From Nitrospira sp. (GTDB lineage Bacteria; Nitrospirota; Nitrospiria; Nitrospirales; Nitrospiraceae): a stretch of DNA of 64,000 bases. Location: contig JACOEM010000008.1 in NCBI GenBank assembly GCA_024998565.1, forward strand, positions 62,001-126,000. Reading direction: 5' to 3'. This document shows, piece by piece, positions 53,833-61,673 of the stretch. Made by a program: the position numbers and the translations under genes. The notes beneath the pieces are model-generated. The model worked only from the letters and a program-made list of their open reading frames with translations. It was not told the DNA's origin and made no database searches. Every line of letters starts with the position of its first letter. Position 1 is the first letter of the stretch.

Positions 53833-53866
53833 ACGCCCCGTCCATCCACAAGGATGAACGGGGCGT
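53833..53866. terminator. Two-way intrinsic terminator
   Basis: A stem pairs ACGCCCCGTCCATCC with GGATGAACGGGGCGT, with one mismatch and loop ACAA. It lies between the convergent slp and cupredoxin genes, flanked by short T/A runs on both sides. Confidence 0.8.
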
Positions 53867-53893: not shown

Positions 53894-54373
53894 TTACTTG
53901 ATCATCACCAACTTGCCGCCCGGCTGCTTCGGATTCAGATGGTCGTGGTAGCTCAGGGTGTTTCCCTGGGTGGCGTTAAACAAATCGCTGGTCGGCACGC
54001 CGATGTACTTCGTCTCGCCCGGCTTCAGCTTGACTTCGGCCTTGAAGACGAACGGCGACGCGGCATTGACCGTGTCGATCATTTGAAAGCCCCGCTCCGT
54101 CGCGGTGGTATTCGTCACCTTGATCAACAGCGGACGGCCCGGACGGACTTTGAAATCGATGACCGTGGTCGGCGGATACCAGGCCTTCAGCGTGCCCATT
54201 TCAATGGCATACAACTGCACATCCACTTCCAACTCCTTGAACGGCTGACCCACAACGGAACCGGTCTCAAGGTCACCGACCTCGACCCCGCCGGCCTGAT
54301 GGGCCAACGCAGACGTTCCACTCGCCAATACGCTCAACACGCCCATGAAAAGAACCGCAATCCTGCTCAACAT
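53894..54373 (-). CDS. Cupredoxin-like periplasmic protein
   Basis: 159 residues from ATG 54373, preceded by AGGAGG. A signal peptide (IAVLFMGVLSVLASGTSA) leads to a beta-sandwich with VDVQLYAIEMGTLKAWYPPT, PLLIKVTNTTATERGFQMID and LSYHDHLNPKQPGGKLVMIK. The ligand pattern at the C-terminus (YHDHLNPKQPGG) differs from blue copper proteins, which have Cys, His and Met in this position. It could bind copper in another way or act as a structural relative. It is in an operon with the small secreted protein upstream (16-base gap). Confidence 0.82.
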   Translation of the reverse strand: MLSRIAVLFMGVLSVLASGTSALAHQAGGVEVGDLETGSVVGQPFKELEVDVQLYAIEMGTLKAWYPPTTVIDFKVRPGRPLLIKVTNTTATERGFQMIDTVNAASPFVFKAEVKLKPGETKYIGVPTSDLFNATQGNTLSYHDHLNPKQPGGKLVMIK

Positions 54374-54389
54374 AGAACCTCCTGTCAGG

Positions 54390-54734
54390 TTAAAGAGATG
54401 AGGACGGACGATGCTCCTGTGCCAGGCACGGGGGAAGACCGGTGCCTTCCAACACCTGGCCACCGACAATGTGACCATCGATGATGAGAAACAGCACTTT
54501 CATACGTTTGGTATTGTCCGAAAATTTCCCGCTGGCCACCGCCAGCACTTCATGTGACCCGTCAGGCTGAGGCTGATCCGCCTCGATCCTGACGTAATAC
54601 GAATCGAACCCCTCGAATTCCCGATTGAACGCCTGCGCCCGTAACAACCGCTCCAATGAATCGTCGGCGGCCCATACTCCTGACCCGCCGGCCAGCGTGA
54701 GGATCTGAACCACGGCCACGAAGAGTTTTCGCAT
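54390..54734 (-). CDS. Small secreted protein of unknown function
   Basis: 114 residues from ATG 54734, preceded by AGGAGGGG. The signal peptide (LFVAVVQILTLAGGSGVWA) is followed by LRAQAFNREFEGFDSYYVRI and DNTKRMKVLFLIIDGHIVGG. The family is not recognised. It lies just upstream of the cupredoxin gene and is probably co-transcribed with it. It may support the same process, but nothing in the sequence shows which one. Confidence 0.75.
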   Translation of the reverse strand: MRKLFVAVVQILTLAGGSGVWAADDSLERLLRAQAFNREFEGFDSYYVRIEADQPQPDGSHEVLAVASGKFSDNTKRMKVLFLIIDGHIVGGQVLEGTGLPPCLAQEHRPSSSL

Positions 54735-54990: not shown

Positions 54991-55293
54991 TTACTTGCCC
55001 TTGGCCTTGCCCTTGTGGCTCGAGGCCTGTTCCGCATGCGCCAGGGACTCTTCCGCATGTTTGACGGCTTCCTTCGCATGCTCCAACGCTTCCTTCGCAT
55101 GCGGGTCGTTGCTCGCCTTGACCGACTCTTCCAGATGCTTGATCGCTTCCTTCTCGTGCTCCACGCCTTCCTTGGCGTGCTTGATCGTTTCCTTCACGTG
55201 CCCGCCGCCGTCGGCCAGCGCGTATCCCACCGGCGCAGTCGCCACCAGCGCGGACAGGGCGAACGCGAGCATACCTGAACGCAATACAGTCAT
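54991..55293 (-). CDS. smbP: SmbP-like small metal-binding protein
   Basis: 100 residues from ATG 55293, with AGGAGG seven bases upstream (an ATG at 55296 is also possible). After a signal peptide the mature protein is a helical bundle built of seven-residue units with regularly placed His, for example HVKETIKHAKEGVEHEKEAI and HAKEALEHAKEAVKHAEESL. The pattern is that of SmbP from Nitrosomonas, a periplasmic protein that binds several copper ions and other metals. A charged Lys-rich tail follows. It supports a nitrifier-type periplasm. A sigma70-type promoter candidate lies upstream. Confidence 0.87.
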   Translation of the reverse strand: MTVLRSGMLAFALSALVATAPVGYALADGGGHVKETIKHAKEGVEHEKEAIKHLEESVKASNDPHAKEALEHAKEAVKHAEESLAHAEQASSHKGKAKGK

Positions 55294-55341
55294 CATGATT
55301 CCTCCTGTGTGATAAGTGGATGTGGCACTCGATTGGGCGGC

Positions 55342-55370
55342 ATTGTACCGCATTTGTCGTGTCGTGTTCA
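55342..55370 (-). promoter_or_regulatory. Candidate promoter of the smbP-like gene
   Basis: On the minus strand TGAACA (55370-55365), a 17-base spacer and TACAAT (55347-55342). It lies about 50 bases before the start codon. Matches to the consensus are four and five of six. Confidence 0.4.
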
Positions 55371-55518
55371 GTAAGGAAAGAGGAGGCCGCACTGACCGTG
55401 AAGGCAACCCGGGACCGAGAAAAAGATGGTGGGAGAGGGAAGCGCATGGGCGTACGCTTCCCTCATCGGAGCTCACTGCGTGGTCAGCGCAGTCCAACCG
55501 TCGAGCCCCGTCCACCGA

Positions 55519-56046
55519 TCATCGAACGTCGGCGGGCGTCAGCCAGGGCAGTCGGCAGACACCGCACCGGCCACGATCCGCCGTGGCCTGCTGAGCGGGC
55601 GAATCCCAGCTCGCATACAACCATGATTCATACTGGCGCGTCCCCGCGCCATTCATCGTGAGACCGGCGCACTTCTCCATCGCAAACAGGGACGGCCTGA
55701 CCCGATAGGATCCGGGGCCTTCCGGATAGGGCTCGGACTCCACGACGAACGTGGTCCCCACGGGAAACGATTCATAGTCCGGCGTGAGCAGCGCCTTGGG
55801 GCAGACATAGAACCGGAGCCGTTTCCGCCCGCCGGGCGATTCCACCGCAGAGGTCACGCTCGGCCAATCCCGATACCCGAGCGGGATCAAGAGCGTGGCA
55901 GCGGGAGGCGCCGGGGACCAGCCCTCGCTGATATCGAGGGCGACCGCCAGCAATCGCACGACCGCCACGCTCAACCCCGCCCTTTCTTGAGCGCCCTGAG
56001 CCATCTCCGCACGACGCGGTGACGCCACCGCAGCACTAACCGGCAT
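55519..56046 (-). CDS. Cytochrome P460-like protein without a heme-attachment motif
   Basis: 175 residues from ATG 56046, with GGGAGG seven bases upstream. LIPLGYRDWPSVTSAV, RFYVCPKALL, FPVGTTFVVESEPYPEG and YESWLYASWD follow the order seen in cytochrome P460 proteins and in the neighbour at 57534-58085. Where that neighbour has CRACHAP, this one has CGVCRLPW: both cysteines remain but the heme-ligand His is Arg. It therefore probably cannot bind heme c in the usual way. The N-terminus looks like a weak export signal. Function is unknown. Confidence 0.7.
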   Translation of the reverse strand: MPVSAAVASPRRAEMAQGAQERAGLSVAVVRLLAVALDISEGWSPAPPAATLLIPLGYRDWPSVTSAVESPGGRKRLRFYVCPKALLTPDYESFPVGTTFVVESEPYPEGPGSYRVRPSLFAMEKCAGLTMNGAGTRQYESWLYASWDSPAQQATADRGRCGVCRLPWLTPADVR

Positions 56047-56075
56047 GGAGCACCTCCCTTCCTGTCGCCTTCTAC

Positions 56076-57230
56076 TTATCGCGTGAGTTCTCCGACCGCA
56101 GGCCCCTGGCGCATGGCCGCACCCTGCCGCACGACTCCCGGCTGAATCCGCGCCCGGATCGATGCGGCCCGCGCAGCGAATAATCCGGCTTCAACCGGCT
56201 GCCCGAGAGTATCGAGCACGTGCGCATACCGCTCCACCAACAGCCCGACGGTGGGATGATGCACACCCAGTTGCGCCTGTTGAATGACGAGCGCGCGCTG
56301 ATACAACAACTGCGCCTCCGTCCACAGTCCCTGCTCATCGGCGAGAAACGCCATATTGCCGACAATTGTGCCGGTCAAGGAGGCCTGGGGTCCGGATGTC
56401 CGTTCCGCAATGGCCAGTGCCTCATCGAAATATCGTTGCGCCGACGCGTAGAGTCCTTCAGCCTGGTAGAGGCAGGCGGCGTTATTCAAACTCATCGCCA
56501 CCGCCGGATGTTCATCGCCGAATCGCAGGCGGCGCATCTTCAGCGCACGCAGGTAGAACGGTTCCGCCCAGGCATAGAGCCCGCGCCCCTTATACAGAAC
56601 GGCAAGGTTGTTCAGCACGGGGCCCAGATCGGGGTGATCCGTGCCATGGGCTTCTTCCATGAGAATCAGGGCCAGGTGATACATCGATTCGGCCGCTGTC
56701 TCCCGTCCCTGCTTGCGGTACAGCTCGGCCAGGTTGTTCAGACTGATCGCCACATCGGGGTGCGCCGCGCCCAGGACCTTGCGCTCGATCGCCAGCACCC
56801 GTTCATACAGGGGCTCCGCGCGAGCCCAATCGCCTTCGGCATGGGCGATTTCCGCCAGGTTATTCAAGGCCGCCGCGACATCCTCATGTTCCGGTCCCAC
56901 GTGTTGTTCCCAGATGGCGAGCGCACGGGTGTACAGCGATTGTGCCTCCTGGAGACGGCCCTGGTCGTGATACAGCAATCCGAGATTGTTGGCTGCCGTG
57001 GCGACGCGAGGGTCGTCGGGACCGACCTGCTCAGCCTCGCGGAGGGCGCGCTGCAAGAGTTGCTCAGCCTCGGCATAGTGCGCCGCTTCCCTGGCCTTCA
57101 CACCGTCGGCGAACAACTGCTGCCAGGCATCGGGGCCGGCGGCCCGGCTCCCATCGACGCCGCACAAGGCCATACCGGCCACCAATGCCATGCGTAACCA
57201 GTACGGGGCTTTCTTCGTGCAATCAGCCAT
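56076..57230 (-). CDS. TPR-repeat protein, kinesin-light-chain type, secreted
   Basis: 384 residues from ATG 57230; GGGAG lies eight bases upstream. A signal-peptide-like N-terminus (LRMALVAGMALCGVDGSRAA) precedes seven to eight 42-residue repeats. Each reads like VATAANNLGLLYHDQGRLQE followed by AQSLYTRALAIWEQHVGPEH. Such repeats make a right-handed superhelix that holds partner proteins. It is 29 bases upstream of the P460-like gene and probably in one operon with it. The partner is unknown. Confidence 0.88.
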   Translation of the reverse strand: MADCTKKAPYWLRMALVAGMALCGVDGSRAAGPDAWQQLFADGVKAREAAHYAEAEQLLQRALREAEQVGPDDPRVATAANNLGLLYHDQGRLQEAQSLYTRALAIWEQHVGPEHEDVAAALNNLAEIAHAEGDWARAEPLYERVLAIERKVLGAAHPDVAISLNNLAELYRKQGRETAAESMYHLALILMEEAHGTDHPDLGPVLNNLAVLYKGRGLYAWAEPFYLRALKMRRLRFGDEHPAVAMSLNNAACLYQAEGLYASAQRYFDEALAIAERTSGPQASLTGTIVGNMAFLADEQGLWTEAQLLYQRALVIQQAQLGVHHPTVGLLVERYAHVLDTLGQPVEAGLFAARAASIRARIQPGVVRQGAAMRQGPAVGELTR

Positions 57231-57313
57231 GTGCGCCGCTCCCTCTGCCGACTCCGTCGATTCTCTGTTCCGCATCCCTCGTGTCCGGCCTCTCCGCACT
57301 AACAGCCCGGAAA

Positions 57314-57400
57314 GCCCCGAAGGGCCGGGGTGGAGGGGGAGGCCATCCCGCTCACCCCGGGAGGCAGATCCTGAAGAAGGGTGCACAACCCCAGGATCCG
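57314..57400. repeat. 87-bp repeat E, copy 1
   Basis: 87 bases that differ from copy 2 (58117-58203) at only three positions. It includes a GCCCCGAAGGGCCGGGG hairpin at one end and AGGATCC at the other. It lies 84 bases upstream of the TPR gene on the minus strand, in the gap before the P460 stop. Confidence 0.85.
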
Positions 57401-57533
57401 AGGGACCTGTGACTCAATCGGCCGATGGGCGGGGAGCGGCCAACCACCGCTCCCCCATGGGACTCCTGCGAGGAGGTAGGTCAAGACCCGCACACAGGCC
57501 CCATCTATTTCCCCCCGATCCGGCCGCATCCTG

Positions 57534-58085
57534 CTAGTGCGCCTTATGGCCCTGCGCGCAAAACTCGTCATACCGGTGCACGAAATCTTTCTGTGCGAGC
57601 GGAGCATGGCAAGCCCGGCATTTTGTAAAATCTTCGGCCAGCGCCTTGCCGTCAGGCCCATAGGCTCCGAACACCCAGGCCCCGTTTCTCAAATTGTCCG
57701 GGACGTCCTGTCCCCACCCCTCGTTCTTCTCCATGACGAACACCTTCAGCAGGTCGCTTTTCACCAGCTTTCCGTCCGCCCCCTTGGCCAAGGCCTCGCC
57801 TTCCGCTTTGGCCTTGTACAACTCCATGACCAGTTGGGTGCCCTGAGGAAACGCCGCGGTCGGACAGGCCCTGGCGCCGGCGGGGCTGACGAACAATTCC
57901 CGTACCTGCTTGGCATCTTCACGCTGTACCTCGCTCAAAAACTTCGGCCAGCTTTTATAGTCGGCCGGGAGCGCGATGTCGCCGTCCTTGGGGGCCGCCC
58001 CCGCTTCAGCAACCGTCGTCACGATCCCGCCGTTCCACGCTACCCCCATCACCACAATGAGGCTTAGTATCTCTCTGACCATCAT
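57534..58085 (-). CDS. Cytochrome P460 family protein
   Basis: 183 residues from ATG 58085, with AAGGAG six bases upstream. A signal peptide is followed by LPADYKSWPKFLSEVQ, FPQGTQLVMELYKAKAEG, NLRNGAWVFGAYGPDGKALA and the heme site CRACHAPLAQKDFVHRYDEF (CxxCH). P460-type cytochromes of ammonia oxidisers oxidise hydroxylamine or detoxify nitrogen oxides; the special lysine-heme cross-link cannot be judged by eye. The stop codon lies in CCTGCTAG, the same sequence that ends family A palindromes. Gene order links it with the TPR protein. Confidence 0.88.
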   Translation of the reverse strand: MMVREILSLIVVMGVAWNGGIVTTVAEAGAAPKDGDIALPADYKSWPKFLSEVQREDAKQVRELFVSPAGARACPTAAFPQGTQLVMELYKAKAEGEALAKGADGKLVKSDLLKVFVMEKNEGWGQDVPDNLRNGAWVFGAYGPDGKALAEDFTKCRACHAPLAQKDFVHRYDEFCAQGHKAH

Positions 58086-58116
58086 ATTCATCTCCTTCCT
58101 CTCAGTCTTGCCGTCG

Positions 58117-58203
58117 GCCCCGAGGGGCCGGGGTGAAGGGGGAGGCCATCCCACTCACCCCGGGAGGCAGATCCTGAAGAAGGGTGCACAACCCCAGGAT
58201 CCG
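58117..58203. repeat. 87-bp repeat E, copy 2
   Basis: Matches copy 1 (57314-57400) except for three substitutions. It contains the hairpin GGCCCCGAGGGGCC and lies between the HTH gene stop (58216) and the P460 start (58085), 32 bases from the P460 ATG. Confidence 0.85.
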
Positions 58204-58215
58204 TTTCCGACAGAC

Positions 58216-58464
58216 CTATCGTTTCATCGCCCTGCGCCCACCGAGCGGCACCGCCTTCAGGTGCGGCGTCGGTTCAAGTGGACGCGGATCCGTTCGATTG
58301 CCTTCCACCAGCGCCGTCACGGAGACACGAAAAATGCGGAGGCTGCCTCCACCGATCTTCGTGGCATTGAGCCGTCCTTCATCGATCCACCGGTAGATCG
58401 TCCACTTACTGACTTGGAGCAATTGCGCGGCCTCTTTCACACGCAACAGCGGCTGTTCCACCAT
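58216..58464 (-). CDS. Excisionase/MerR-like helix-turn-helix protein
   Basis: 82 residues from ATG 58464, with AAGGGG upstream. RVKEAAQLLQVSKWTIYRWI, DEGRLNATKIGGG and LRIFRVSVTALVEG are the winged helix-turn-helix of the excisionase family (HTH_17). Such proteins bind DNA as small regulators or recombination directionality factors. No integrase is nearby. It may regulate the P460/TPR genes that follow on the same strand. Confidence 0.85.
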   Translation of the reverse strand: MVEQPLLRVKEAAQLLQVSKWTIYRWIDEGRLNATKIGGGSLRIFRVSVTALVEGNRTDPRPLEPTPHLKAVPLGGRRAMKR

Positions 58465-58836
58465 CTCGCTTACCCCTTCAACACCTTGGCGGTGGATAGG
58501 AGCGGTCCGTGACCGCTCCTCCCCCGACTGCAGGAAGGGGCACGAGCCTCCCGCACAACCGGGTCCACCATTCAGGACCGATGCAAAACACATCGCGGTT
58601 CCGTCGTGGGAACCGGCAGCGGAGGTCACAGGAAACGCGCCTGCGCTGCCGGGTGGTCCGGGATCGGAGGGCAATCCCATCCTCGGACTCAACATGCTTG
58701 AGTGAAATAGCTCGGGCCGAACGCCCGGACAAGGCGGAGCACAGGACCGACAGGACTCCCGCCTGGCACTTGGCCTGAACGACGGGATCGAATTTCTCTG
58801 TGCGATGAATCGGTGGCGACGCGCGCCCCGCCCGAA
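58465..58836. other. Gap without a recognised gene
   Basis: 372 bases between the HTH gene and the DUF2946-like gene. The only clear element is a perfect hairpin at 58499-58519 (GGAGCGGTC, CGT, GACCGCTCC). Open frames here lack a codon pattern or Shine-Dalgarno. No repeat-family arms are seen. Confidence 0.6.
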
Positions 58837-59169
58837 CTATCCCCTCACGGGGATGGGCGGCGCACGGGCATGCAGGGACGAGGGATCCCCGGAAGTCAGA
58901 AGGAGCGGAGGGGCAATCAACGTGTGGGATTGAGCGACCCAGGCAGTCCCCACATCCCCCTGGGAAATCGGGCCGACATCCGATGTCGCCTGACAGGCCC
59001 AGGAGCAAAGGGTGGAATGGGATTCCGTGCCTGAATGCTGATGATGACTATCCGACGGGGTGGCATGGGCGAAAGAACAGCCCGGTGCCACGAGCGCCAA
59101 TACCACATACACCCAGACGATTCCGAGTGCGAGGCCGGCAACTGTGGTTTGTGAAGTCCGTCGGATCAT
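58837..59169 (-). CDS. Small exported Cys/His-rich protein (DUF2946-like)
   Basis: 110 residues. A signal-anchor (VAGLALGIVWVYVVLALVAP) is followed by a His-rich stretch (SDSHHQHSGTESHS) and a CSWACQ segment. This layout is typical of DUF2946-type proteins found with copper genes. It may bind metal in the periplasm. ATG 59169 has a weak GGTGAGAG upstream. It stands between the HTH protein and the ABC exporter genes. Confidence 0.7.
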   Translation of the reverse strand: MIRRTSQTTVAGLALGIVWVYVVLALVAPGCSFAHATPSDSHHQHSGTESHSTLCSWACQATSDVGPISQGDVGTAWVAQSHTLIAPPLLLTSGDPSSLHARAPPIPVRG

Positions 59170-59319
59170 GGTCTGATAGCTCTCACCTGCCGTATCAAAT
59201 ACGCCGTTCCGCAGAAGTTGTCTACCGACGGATGCTCACGCGTGCTACAAAATGTGAGCCCTTGTTCAAACACCTGTCGATCGAGGGTGAAATATTCAAG
59301 CGATGCCCGCCCTCCCGCA

Positions 59320-60492
59320 TCAGAGGGTGCGCTCACCCAGCGCCTGCACAATTTCGAGGCGAGAGGCCCGGGTGGCCGGAACGAGGCCGCCGACAATGCT
59401 CATGAGCATCGCAAACACGAGGGCGATCGCGATCATCTCGCCCGAGAGGTGAAAGCCGAAGACCAGTTCGGTGCCGGTGTCGAAGTTCATGGTGGAGATC
59501 GTCATAGACTGCAACCCCACCGCGGCGACGACTCCCAGCAAGCCCGCGATCGTGCCCAGCGCCATCGATTCCAGCAGAAACGCCTGCAGGATATCCATCC
59601 GCGTGAACCCGATGGTCCGCAGCGTGCCGATCTCGGTCGTCCGCTGCGCCACCGACGCCGACATCGTCATCGTCGCTCCGAGCACCGCGCCGACACTGAA
59701 AACCACGGTTAGAAACAGCCCCGTGACGCGAATCATTCTGGCGAGGCCTTCCGCCTTGCCTTCGTAATACTCCGGCTCGCGTTTCACCGAAAATTTAAAC
59801 CGTGGATCCCGCTCGATCCGGTCCTTGAACGCAGGCAGCATCGCAGGCTGCACCAACCGGAGGGTCAGAGACGAAAAGGTGGTGCGATGGAACGTCGCCA
59901 GGAATTGTTCCGCATCGCCCCAGACCTCGGAGTCGAATCCGCTGCCGCCGGCCTCGAACACCCCGACCACAGTCCAGGCCCGATTCCCGAAGTGCAACAC
60001 CCGATCGACGCGGGCGTCCGGAAACTGCCTGGCGATGGAGGCACCCACAACGATCTCGGTGGTGCCCGGCCTCCACAGTCGCCCCTGAATCAGGCGGATC
60101 GCCGGCCGCACCGCCAGCGCCTCGGGTGCCGTGCCCCGCAAGGTCACGCTGGTCAGACTGCCGCCCTGCCCCTTCCGCAGCGTCAATTGCAGTCCGACCT
60201 CAGCGACCGCCAGCGGCCGGCGATCCGCCGTCAGTCGAACCTCCGGCTGAGCTGCCACCGCGCGTATTTCCTCGCGGGACAGGCTGCTGCCGATTTCCGA
60301 GAGTGCGCCTTTGCGCAGAATGATCACGTTCTCCGGATCGCCCGTCTTCCCCAGTGTCCGCTCCAATCCATGGGCCAACATCAACACGGCCAACAACACG
60401 AACACCACCAGCCCCAAACCAACGACGGTCAACGCCGTCGTCACACGGCGAGCCCACAGATTTCTGAGGCTGTACAGACCCCACCGCACCAT
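59320..60492 (-). CDS. ABC transporter permease, FtsX/MacB type
   Basis: 390 residues from ATG 60492. One N-terminal helix (TTALTVVGLGLVVFVLLAVL), a large periplasmic domain and three C-terminal helices match FtsX-like permeases; RTTEIGTLRTIGFTRMDILQ is the cytoplasmic coupling loop. It is the second permease of a four-gene set with another permease, an ATPase and an adaptor. Such systems extract lipoproteins (Lol type) or drive MacAB-type export. The start lies 15 bases from the stop of the first permease. Confidence 0.9.
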   Translation of the reverse strand: MVRWGLYSLRNLWARRVTTALTVVGLGLVVFVLLAVLMLAHGLERTLGKTGDPENVIILRKGALSEIGSSLSREEIRAVAAQPEVRLTADRRPLAVAEVGLQLTLRKGQGGSLTSVTLRGTAPEALAVRPAIRLIQGRLWRPGTTEIVVGASIARQFPDARVDRVLHFGNRAWTVVGVFEAGGSGFDSEVWGDAEQFLATFHRTTFSSLTLRLVQPAMLPAFKDRIERDPRFKFSVKREPEYYEGKAEGLARMIRVTGLFLTVVFSVGAVLGATMTMSASVAQRTTEIGTLRTIGFTRMDILQAFLLESMALGTIAGLLGVVAAVGLQSMTISTMNFDTGTELVFGFHLSGEMIAIALVFAMLMSIVGGLVPATRASRLEIVQALGERTL

Positions 60493-60506
60493 TTCCTTAC
60501 CCCCGC

Positions 60507-61673
60507 CTATCCCGCATGCCGCAGCCCGTCCAACGTCGTCATCCGGATGAGACGGACCGCCGGCCAGATCGCCGCGCCCAAGGCCACCAGCACCATCATG
60601 CCCAGGCACAACCCCGCCGTCTCCAGCGACACCGCGTAGGCGGCCACGTACCCGTTCGATTGGGTCATCTGCGCGTAGAGCCGCGACGCGGGGACGAGCA
60701 GGCCCAATCCCAGGGCCCCGCCGCAGAGCGCCAGCAGCAACGACTCGCCCAACACCAGGACGCAAAAATGCCGCGGCTGAAATCCCAGCGTCTTGATCAC
60801 GGCATATTCCCTGGTCCGTTCCCGGACCGCCATGGCCAGCGCGTTCAGCAGGACCAGGAGCGCGATCCCGTTGATGACTGCGGACACCGCTTCCAGGCCG
60901 TACAGCAGTGCGCTCGACCGCTCGACCCACCCGGCAATGAACGCCTGCTCCAGTTCCGTGCGTGTCTCGGCAAACGAGTTCGCAAACAGCGCATCGATCG
61001 CCAGGGCCACTGCCCGGGGATTACTCCCTTCGTTCACATCGATCGCGTACCACGACACCTGATCGGCGCGGTCGGGCTGGGTCGTCTTCACCTGTTCATT
61101 GAGATAGTCCCACTGCAGAAACAATTCCTGATCCGACCAGATCATGAGGTTGCTGCTGCGGTAAATGCCGCGCACGATCACTTCCCATTGCCCGGGATAG
61201 CTGGTCCCGGTCAGCGGAATGACATCGCCGAGTTTCCATCCGTACCGCTCGGCCAGGGACAGGCCGACGATGCACCCGCGGCGATCCTGCACAAAGGCCA
61301 GACGCTCCCCCTCGGAGAGCAGAATTTCCGGATATGTGGTCAGCAATGTCGCCGCCGGCTCGGCGAAGGAGGCCAACGGCTGCTTGGAATCCTTGTAGAT
61401 CCCGCCGAACTCGACGCCATAGTGCACGGACCGCACCCCCGGCAGCACCGCCATGCGATCTCTGTATGCCAACGGAAGCGGCAAGGCCCCCGACATCGCA
61501 TGGACCGTGATCAGCCGGTTCTTGCTGGCCGCTTTTGCCGCTCCCTGCCATTCGTCGAGCGTCAGACGGATGAGGCCGAACGCCAGCACGACCATGGCGA
61601 GCCCCCAGACCGTCAAGGCCAGCCGGACCGGGCGGCGCAGCGTATTGCGGAGCACGAGCCGGCCGAGCGTCAT
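60507..61673 (-). CDS. ABC transporter permease, FtsX/MacB type
   Basis: 388 residues. A helix ([20 protein letters not shown]), a periplasmic domain and three C-terminal helices, including [20 protein letters not shown] as the coupling loop. It pairs with the downstream permease; the two are not near-identical, so the complex is probably a heterodimer. The start overlaps the stop of the ATPase gene (ATGA). Confidence 0.9.

Follow-up and report, generated by a model that had tools for sequence, protein, structure and literature searches.

A conserved twin-hairpin RNA element recurring between the genes of a probable metal operon in Nitrospiraceae

Nitrospira are important nitrite oxidisers that depend on metal enzymes. 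In a 64,000-nt stretch of a Nitrospira genome (the window; contig JACOEM010000008.1), an 87-bp repeat had been noticed from the letters alone, and this sequence-only reading offered a shared leader, a regulatory RNA or a recombination site as explanations. The question addressed here is which of these the repeat is and what it could do for the genes next to it. The repeat pair was found as described: both copies have 87 bp, lie in the same orientation and differ at three positions (57321/58124, 57333/58136 and 57350/58153), a similarity far beyond chance (E = 2.2e-35). The 13-15 bases compared on each side of both copies showed no relation between the copies. Each has a minus-strand gene downstream, the P460 gene for 58117-58203 (copy A) and the TPR gene for 57314-57400 (copy B). 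The GC-rich hairpin closest to the start codon is present as well, and a second long hairpin in each copy had been omitted by that reading. The suggested search for further copies, made over all 4.13 Mb (19 contigs) of the own genome, returned those two alone at E <= 0.001, and the covariance model R2 introduced below also gave two copies, both in the operon. The many scattered copies per genome of a dispersed REP-like repeat were not found, the own genome holding two copies in one operon. The features of the region are collected in Table 1.

Table 1. Positions, in window coordinates, of the genes and RNA features around the repeat
Feature	Positions	Strand	Basis or remark
h110, small exported-looking protein, CxxxC and C-terminal RAPP, CruR/CutF-like	58837-59169	minus	no Pfam/NCBIfam match
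Predicted hairpin, RAPP codons of h110 and first bases past the h110 stop	58823-58863	minus	single-sequence folds only
Diverged twin-hairpin element, loops UUGCCCUCC and GUGACCUCC	58613-58690	minus	spacer upstream of HTH gene
HTH_17 / excisionase-family DNA-binding protein	58216-58467	minus	Pfam HTH_17 and NCBIfam, over cut-offs
Element copy A, 87-nt RNA	58117-58203	minus	between HTH stop and P460 start
Copy A hairpin 1, 12 pairs, loop UUGUGCACCCUU	58168-58203	minus	covariation
Copy A hairpin 2, 10+3 pairs, loop AUGGCCUC	58128-58163	minus	
Copy A short hairpin, UUCG type (CUCG here)	58118-58127	minus	
P460A, cytochrome P460 family protein	57534-58088	minus	PF16694
Element copy B, 87-nt RNA	57314-57400	minus	between P460 stop and TPR start
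Copy B hairpin 1	57365-57400	minus	
Copy B hairpin 2	57325-57360	minus	
Copy B UUCG hairpin	57315-57324	minus	
TPR protein	56076-57230	minus	
P460B, second P460-like protein	55519-56046	minus	20.2 bits, under Pfam cut-off 27
SMBP, small metal-binding protein family	54991-55302	minus	PF16785
h114, conserved protein	54390-54734	minus	without Pfam match
Cupredoxin-like protein	53894-54376	minus	by eye; without Pfam match
Terminator-like hairpin, 15 pairs, T-rich tail, possible operon end	53833-53866	minus	

Evidence for an RNA was sought in the pattern of substitutions. RNAalifold, run on the genus alignment, returned a hairpin 1 of 12 pairs (outer stem), a hairpin 2 of 10 + 3 pairs and a short hairpin. 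Among 31 copies (the genus and one relative), 6 of the 29 pairs were compensated, which none of 500 shuffles matched. With 79 distinct copies, compensation was observed in 20 of 27 pairs (shuffle mean 11.6, slid controls 3-9) and in 291 cells (shuffle mean 98, slid 13-45). Since the 79-copy alignment had been fitted to the model, the count was repeated on a MAFFT alignment of 59 copies, hand-picked from 90 matches with most near-duplicates dropped. Here 15 of 29 pairs were compensated (9 of 500 shuffles reach that), with 185 compensated cells against a shuffle mean of 62.6 (none match) and 16-35 in slid controls, and 93.1% of the cells were paired, compared with 32-65% when slid. The nine most divergent copies (L133-L139 and the second copies in L108 and L117) stand outside this set and are tested by the 79-copy count. 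G·U cells were more frequent than A·C cells (156 versus 20) and this relation would be reversed on the opposite strand; the RNA is therefore the gene-sense strand, which is the minus strand of the window. The element is well supported as an RNA that is oriented toward the P460 and TPR genes and composed of two long hairpins and a short one of UUCG type.

The loop positions were among the most conserved columns, a UUCG-type tail was present in many copies, and the fold of copy A was very stable (-47.8 kcal/mol). An open frame extends from copy B into the TPR gene. A small coding region was ruled out, because the copies vary in length by single bases (83-88 nt) and such one-base differences disrupt any common frame. 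A search of window positions 56900-58700 against Rfam 15 at relaxed E gave just a sub-threshold match to PhotoRC-I (16.3 bits versus 45), and at gathering score the loci of nine relatives yielded a tRNA alone.

The element was detected in 25 of 29 same-genus genomes, the own one included (DNA search, E <= 1e-4), with two copies in 13 and one in 12; those without it at this threshold were G007, G012, G014 and G017. Identity to the query was 91-100% in 23 genus genomes and 84-90% in G001 and G004, and in more distant genus genomes the identity of the flanking TPR protein drops to 66-75%. In 69 of 175 family genomes the element was recovered, at E <= 0.05, by R1, a covariance model built on 31 distinct copies. 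The second model (R2), from 90 matches, found it at E <= 0.01 in 81 of the 175, belonging to 12 of 22 genera, and 94 were without it at this threshold. When R2 was run over 395 phylum genomes, 66 were matched, 65 of them in Nitrospiraceae. The one exception, G275, with E = 0.006 in the search of these 395 genomes, was taken as chance and excluded from the 106 copies used for the context analysis. This set also leaves out opposite-strand matches, which cover only the near-palindromic hairpin 2 except for one weak full-length match in L102, and weak full-length matches in L093, L106, L102, L110, L122 and L115. The weakest copies inside it (G141, G174, G198x and G034x, E 0.001-0.008) may singly be chance. 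In a collection of 84,980 species, a 25-base loop pattern, built from known copies and thus prone to miss divergent ones, occurred in 33 stretches. Their titles name Nitrospira, with two pattern matches in Candidatus Nitrospira defluvii (FP929003.1), or Nitrospiraceae, except for one labelled Nitrosospira (isolate NOB2). The RNA family is old and, as far as seen, restricted to Nitrospiraceae. The opposing account raised at the outset, a recent segmental duplication, is excluded by this age, and a functionless duplication was ruled out by the element being kept in 12 genera of the family.

The order of features in the window is h110, diverged twin hairpin, HTH, copy A, P460A, copy B, TPR, P460B, SMBP, h114, cupredoxin-like gene and terminator-like hairpin; beyond the latter, genes for a DsbA-like protein and for a P-type ATPase bearing motifs of the heavy-metal type were recognised by eye. 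The genes probably form one transcript. In order to see how constant this context is, the surroundings of the 106 copies were annotated with 13 custom protein profiles, to which the gene families named here are limited. The h110 gene was found within 2.5 kb upstream of 101 copies, and two of the other five (G108b and G066b) sit near a contig end. The nearest upstream profile gene was HTH in 60 copies, h110 in 26, P460A in 15 and another or none in 5. Where it was HTH, the frame ended (stop codon excluded) 11-15 nt before the element in 30 of 60 cases. The nearest downstream one was TPR in 26, SMBP in 24, a P460A-profile match in 19 (this profile also picks up some P460B proteins), HMA in 15, P460B in 11, h114 in 3, h110 in 1 and none in 7, some of these near contig ends. 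The next recognised gene was accordingly a TPR, P460-type, SMBP or heavy-metal-domain protein in 95 copies. All 637 of 637 profile-matched genes near copies lay on the strand of the element, genes beside two copies being counted twice.

The protein at the head of the probable operon, h110, gave no match in Pfam or NCBIfam for the copy of the window, DUF2946 (PF11162) included. Three h110 relatives were scored by the DUF2946 profile at 14.2, 18.5 and 20.8 bits, below the cut-off of 23.7, and such scores say little, as the profile matches 9 of 14 control genomes, above the cut-off in 1. The layout of motifs is therefore the stronger evidence for likeness to CruR and CutF, which are described as small proteins that sense copper during their own synthesis and thereby control the next gene (PMC9426467, PMC9973294). 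In CruR, the CXXC and RAPP motifs are about 45 residues apart (PMC9426467); in h110 of the window, 42 residues lie between the cysteine pair and R-x-P-P, in line with CutF/CruR spacing. An alignment of 9 h110 proteins (8 relatives hand-picked) showed the cysteine pair of CxxxC and the R-x-P-P near the C terminus unchanged in all of them, and RAPP or RGPP was found in 28 of 31 h110 reading frames, the remaining ones (G119, G155 and G080) looking like wrong frames. On the basis of these motifs and of the gene content, the operon was called metal-handling, probably for copper; copper would likewise be the candidate signal.

The arrangement resembles two known systems of the DUF2946 type. With cutF-stem-loop-cutO of Rhodobacter capsulatus, as described in PMC9973294, it has in common that metal genes are preceded by one for a small exported protein with CxxxC and a C terminus rich in proline, and that a structured RNA lies between genes. 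Unlike there, the RNA has two hairpins, recurs in the operon and often follows HTH or P460A, and h110 of the window, unlike the leader CutF, is without a DUF2946 match. The cutF-cutO stem-loop is described as concealing the Shine-Dalgarno sequence of the next gene (PMC9973294), whereas nested masking was not seen here. With CruR-bfrG of Bordetella pertussis the shared traits are a CXXC-type pair with RAPP and an operon with a TonB-dependent receptor, the target in that system (PMC9426467). CruR-bfrG works via a C-rich site for Rho that lies where there is little structure, and the passages of PMC9426467 on this mechanism do not mention a twin-hairpin RNA. A kindred neighbour was observed at seven copies (L093, L094, L095, L097, L098, L101 and L125), where the element is followed by P460B, a second h110-type gene and a TonB-dependent receptor. 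The hairpin over the RAPP codons was predicted (fold only) in several genus genomes and not in others; its stretch is GC-rich and its sequence is kept throughout the genus, as a stem-loop of the CutF type would be.

The spacer between h110 and HTH holds a diverged twin hairpin, matched weakly by R2 at 58599-58691 (E = 0.063 over 16 kb). All 23 genus loci that were scanned carried its motif, and it was found at neither of two loci outside the genus; the scan left out G026 and G016, and the stretch of G001 folds differently. In 20 sequences, 7 of 25 pairs were compensated (shuffle mean 2.6, reached in 0 of 500; slid 0-3), and 98.4% of the cells were paired versus 31-48% when slid. In other genera, model-recognised elements follow h110 in G034x, G195x, G196x, G197x, G071 and G193, and the stretch was therefore counted in the same series. 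It can be regarded with moderate confidence as a further member, with loops of the same kind.

The repeats also bear on the history of P460A. All 12 genus genomes with P460A at this place, among them G021 with its gene in two pieces, carry a copy on both sides of the gene. The 13 other element-bearing genus genomes have one copy in 12 cases and two in G004, 242 nt apart, and between the latter the apparent 3' flank of a lost P460A was recognised by eye. At all 12 one-copy loci, the upstream flank was nearer to the HTH-side flank and the downstream flank nearer to the TPR-side flank, which are the outer flanks of two-copy loci; the margin for the downstream flank was 0.18 in G015, G020 and G018 and just 0.01-0.04 in G001, G027 and G010. 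On a tree of the operon proteins with 26 tips, some nodes of which are weakly supported, P460A presence takes 10 changes. Recurrent deletion via recombination between the repeats would explain this pattern well, and gain by the same route may be allowed for. Two genomes without the element, G012 and G017, have P460A homologues; that of G017 adjoins DsbA and ATPase genes, and no h110, HTH, TPR or SMBP was detected there.

For the function of the element, we give about an even chance to a cis-acting intercistronic RNA of a metal, probably copper, operon that acts on the following gene, most likely translationally by loop pairing. The element would be carried in the polycistronic mRNA of this Nitrospiraceae operon, fold mostly just past one gene and ahead of the next, and act in cis on the latter. 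Its apical loops, which are pyrimidine-rich and similar to the anti-Shine-Dalgarno tail of 16S rRNA (CCUCC, CACCCUUCUU), would hold the Shine-Dalgarno of the next gene through loop pairing, and a passing ribosome, the leader peptide h110 or another factor would release it. Of 94 distinct copies, 90 have CCUCC in their second half and 87 have CCUUC, CUCUUC or CCUCC in their first. In all 94, the loop segments, which take in some stem bases, have at least 5 consecutive bases in common with the 16S tail; of the shuffled segments, 53% do. At 43 of 53 hand-listed loci, the best duplex of segment and leader overlapped the Shine-Dalgarno window, compared with 59% for shuffled segments. The duplex energies of real and shuffled segments were alike (-17.9 versus -17.7 kcal/mol), so that composition explains much of the pairing; loop pairing is modestly favoured by these data.

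Nested masking of the Shine-Dalgarno was evaluated as a different mode of translational control and was not supported. At 81 loci, the Shine-Dalgarno was unpaired with a mean probability of 0.35 if the element was included and of 0.46 if it was left out, the value being lower by >0.2 at 20 loci and higher at 3. This drop disappears against shuffled elements (mean 0.36 with the element versus 0.34 shuffled, 27 of 54 loci each way) and is therefore an effect of added sequence. The control was based on simple, not dinucleotide, shuffles and on hand-listed starts, that of G000_B being off its ATG. Further points against the translational reading are the estimated distance from element to start codon, which ranges from 15 to over 180 nt, and the 94 family genomes without the element at the R2 threshold. 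A wider proposal, which we consider doubtful, would be that of a new regulatory RNA class, in which a twin-hairpin module is used 1-3 times along a copper operon and its anti-Shine-Dalgarno-like loops set the translation of each gene separately, in concert with a copper-sensing nascent peptide of the CruR/CutF kind at the operon head.

Other roles were weighed against this translational reading. As a processing or stability element, the hairpins would form the 5' terminus of the downstream mRNA after processing and raise the effectors (P460, SMBP, cupredoxin) over the upstream regulators (h110, HTH); this is held to be rather unlikely. In 86 of 106 copies the first recognised gene on the upstream side is indeed HTH or h110, and the very stable fold and the UUCG-type tail would fit; yet a plain stabiliser needs no conserved loops, and the 15 copies that follow P460A stand behind an effector gene. 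Control at the level of transcription, either by processive antitermination like that of the phage HK022 put element or by pausing or termination in an operon that begins with a CruR-like leader peptide, is judged unlikely. Put RNA, of about 70 nt, is described in PMC9378689 as having two stem-loops in the nascent RNA and acting in cis. The present element has the same layout and is repeated inside one operon, and the Rho-dependent action of CruR (PMC9426467) points in the same direction. The likeness to put is one of layout, without a match in Rfam: put forms a triplex and contacts RNA polymerase (PMC9378689), and what is compared here is structure. An intrinsic terminator or attenuator was dismissed for the window copies, as neither is followed by a T-run or appears among the terminator-like sites, and TTTT occurs within 15 nt past the element in just 1 of 38 genus copies. 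The terminator-like scan of the window gave six sites versus 7.2 expected by chance, the one in Table 1 being the longest. On this strand, sites lie shortly upstream of copy A (58615-58596 and 58352-58336), and none was found from copy A to SMBP. A sub-clade of eight copies (L178-L184, L186) has T4-T7 within a few bases after hairpin 2, replacing the UUCG hairpin; this could form an intrinsic terminator there and would suit a transcriptional role.

That the element is the source of a trans-acting small RNA, its C/U-rich loops pairing with Shine-Dalgarno regions of other mRNAs, appears improbable. The conserved anti-Shine-Dalgarno-like loops would serve such a function, and a promoter-like box 3' of the element at some loci suggests a separate unit: TATACT stands between element and gene in 13 of 24 SMBP-type copies, ten of them with a weak -35-like hexamer. 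These sites before SMBP imply that the element need not belong to SMBP's own leader, which also tells against the translational reading there. Upstream promoters are inconsistent, a sigma-70 consensus scan of up to 700 nt upstream giving weak matches in 9 of 107 copies and, within the genus, three weak sites in total (G019_B, G004_B and G000_A). The promoter-like scan of the window gave four sites versus 1.8 expected, the nearest at 55370-55342 ahead of SMBP, and none on this strand from 55370 to 61000. Furthermore, most genus copies have no U-tailed terminator, and the copies are confined to one gene cluster and one strand. A ligand- or metal-binding riboswitch, or a protein-binding leader, read out on the next gene, is very improbable. 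The two hairpins with long conserved loops and the metal-gene context would be compatible with it, as would the weak copy G034x, in which the two loop types, by eye, apparently swapped places; a switch structure was not identified, and the mRNA of the CruR system is reported not to sense copper in vitro (PMC9426467). The faintest prospects are those of a DNA-level site, either an HTH operator or a site-specific recombination site for P460 cassettes. The adjacent excisionase-like HTH gene is real, and in 56 of 106 copies no more than 60 nt separate the end of its frame from the element; P460A was moreover gained or lost between two copies. The proposed link to the HTH protein proved weak, as h110 is the nearest upstream gene in 26 copies and the element is retained in G022 and G001, where no HTH gene was detected between h110 and the element. 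The one-copy flanks are those that simple repeat deletion gives. As to the explanations offered by the sequence-only reading, a leader or regulatory RNA is thus borne out by conservation, strand-specific covariation and gene context. A dedicated recombination site is unsupported, because the excess of G·U over A·C fixes one strand and the P460 gain or loss is of the sort that any direct repeats yield by homologous recombination.

Among the open PMC papers listed in a search, none dealt with this element or with RNA-based regulation of these genes in Nitrospira, and none linked Nitrospira with DUF2946. Regulatory RNAs that lie between cistrons, close to a copper leader peptide, are of a known kind; the twin-hairpin form is not known. 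A conserved RNA tied to metal and P460 genes offers a concrete handle on metal control in organisms that are hard to grow, and copper-sensing leader peptides may be combined with additional structured RNAs within a single operon.

Three further observations concern the spacers and P460A. The remaining part of the h110-HTH spacer (58468-58612, minus strand) is also kept in 20 aligned genus genomes and has inverted repeats just ahead of the HTH gene (AGGAGCGGT/ACCGCTCCT and GGTGGA/TCCACC). P460A of G021 (L042, 8018-8525, minus strand) consists of two overlapping pieces in different frames, which suggests a decaying or frameshifted gene. The spacer between P460A and copy B in the window (57401-57533, minus strand) contains an additional GC-rich hairpin and a ACCTACCTCC stretch, and a very similar stretch of this type persists, by eye, between the two copies of G004, where P460A is absent.
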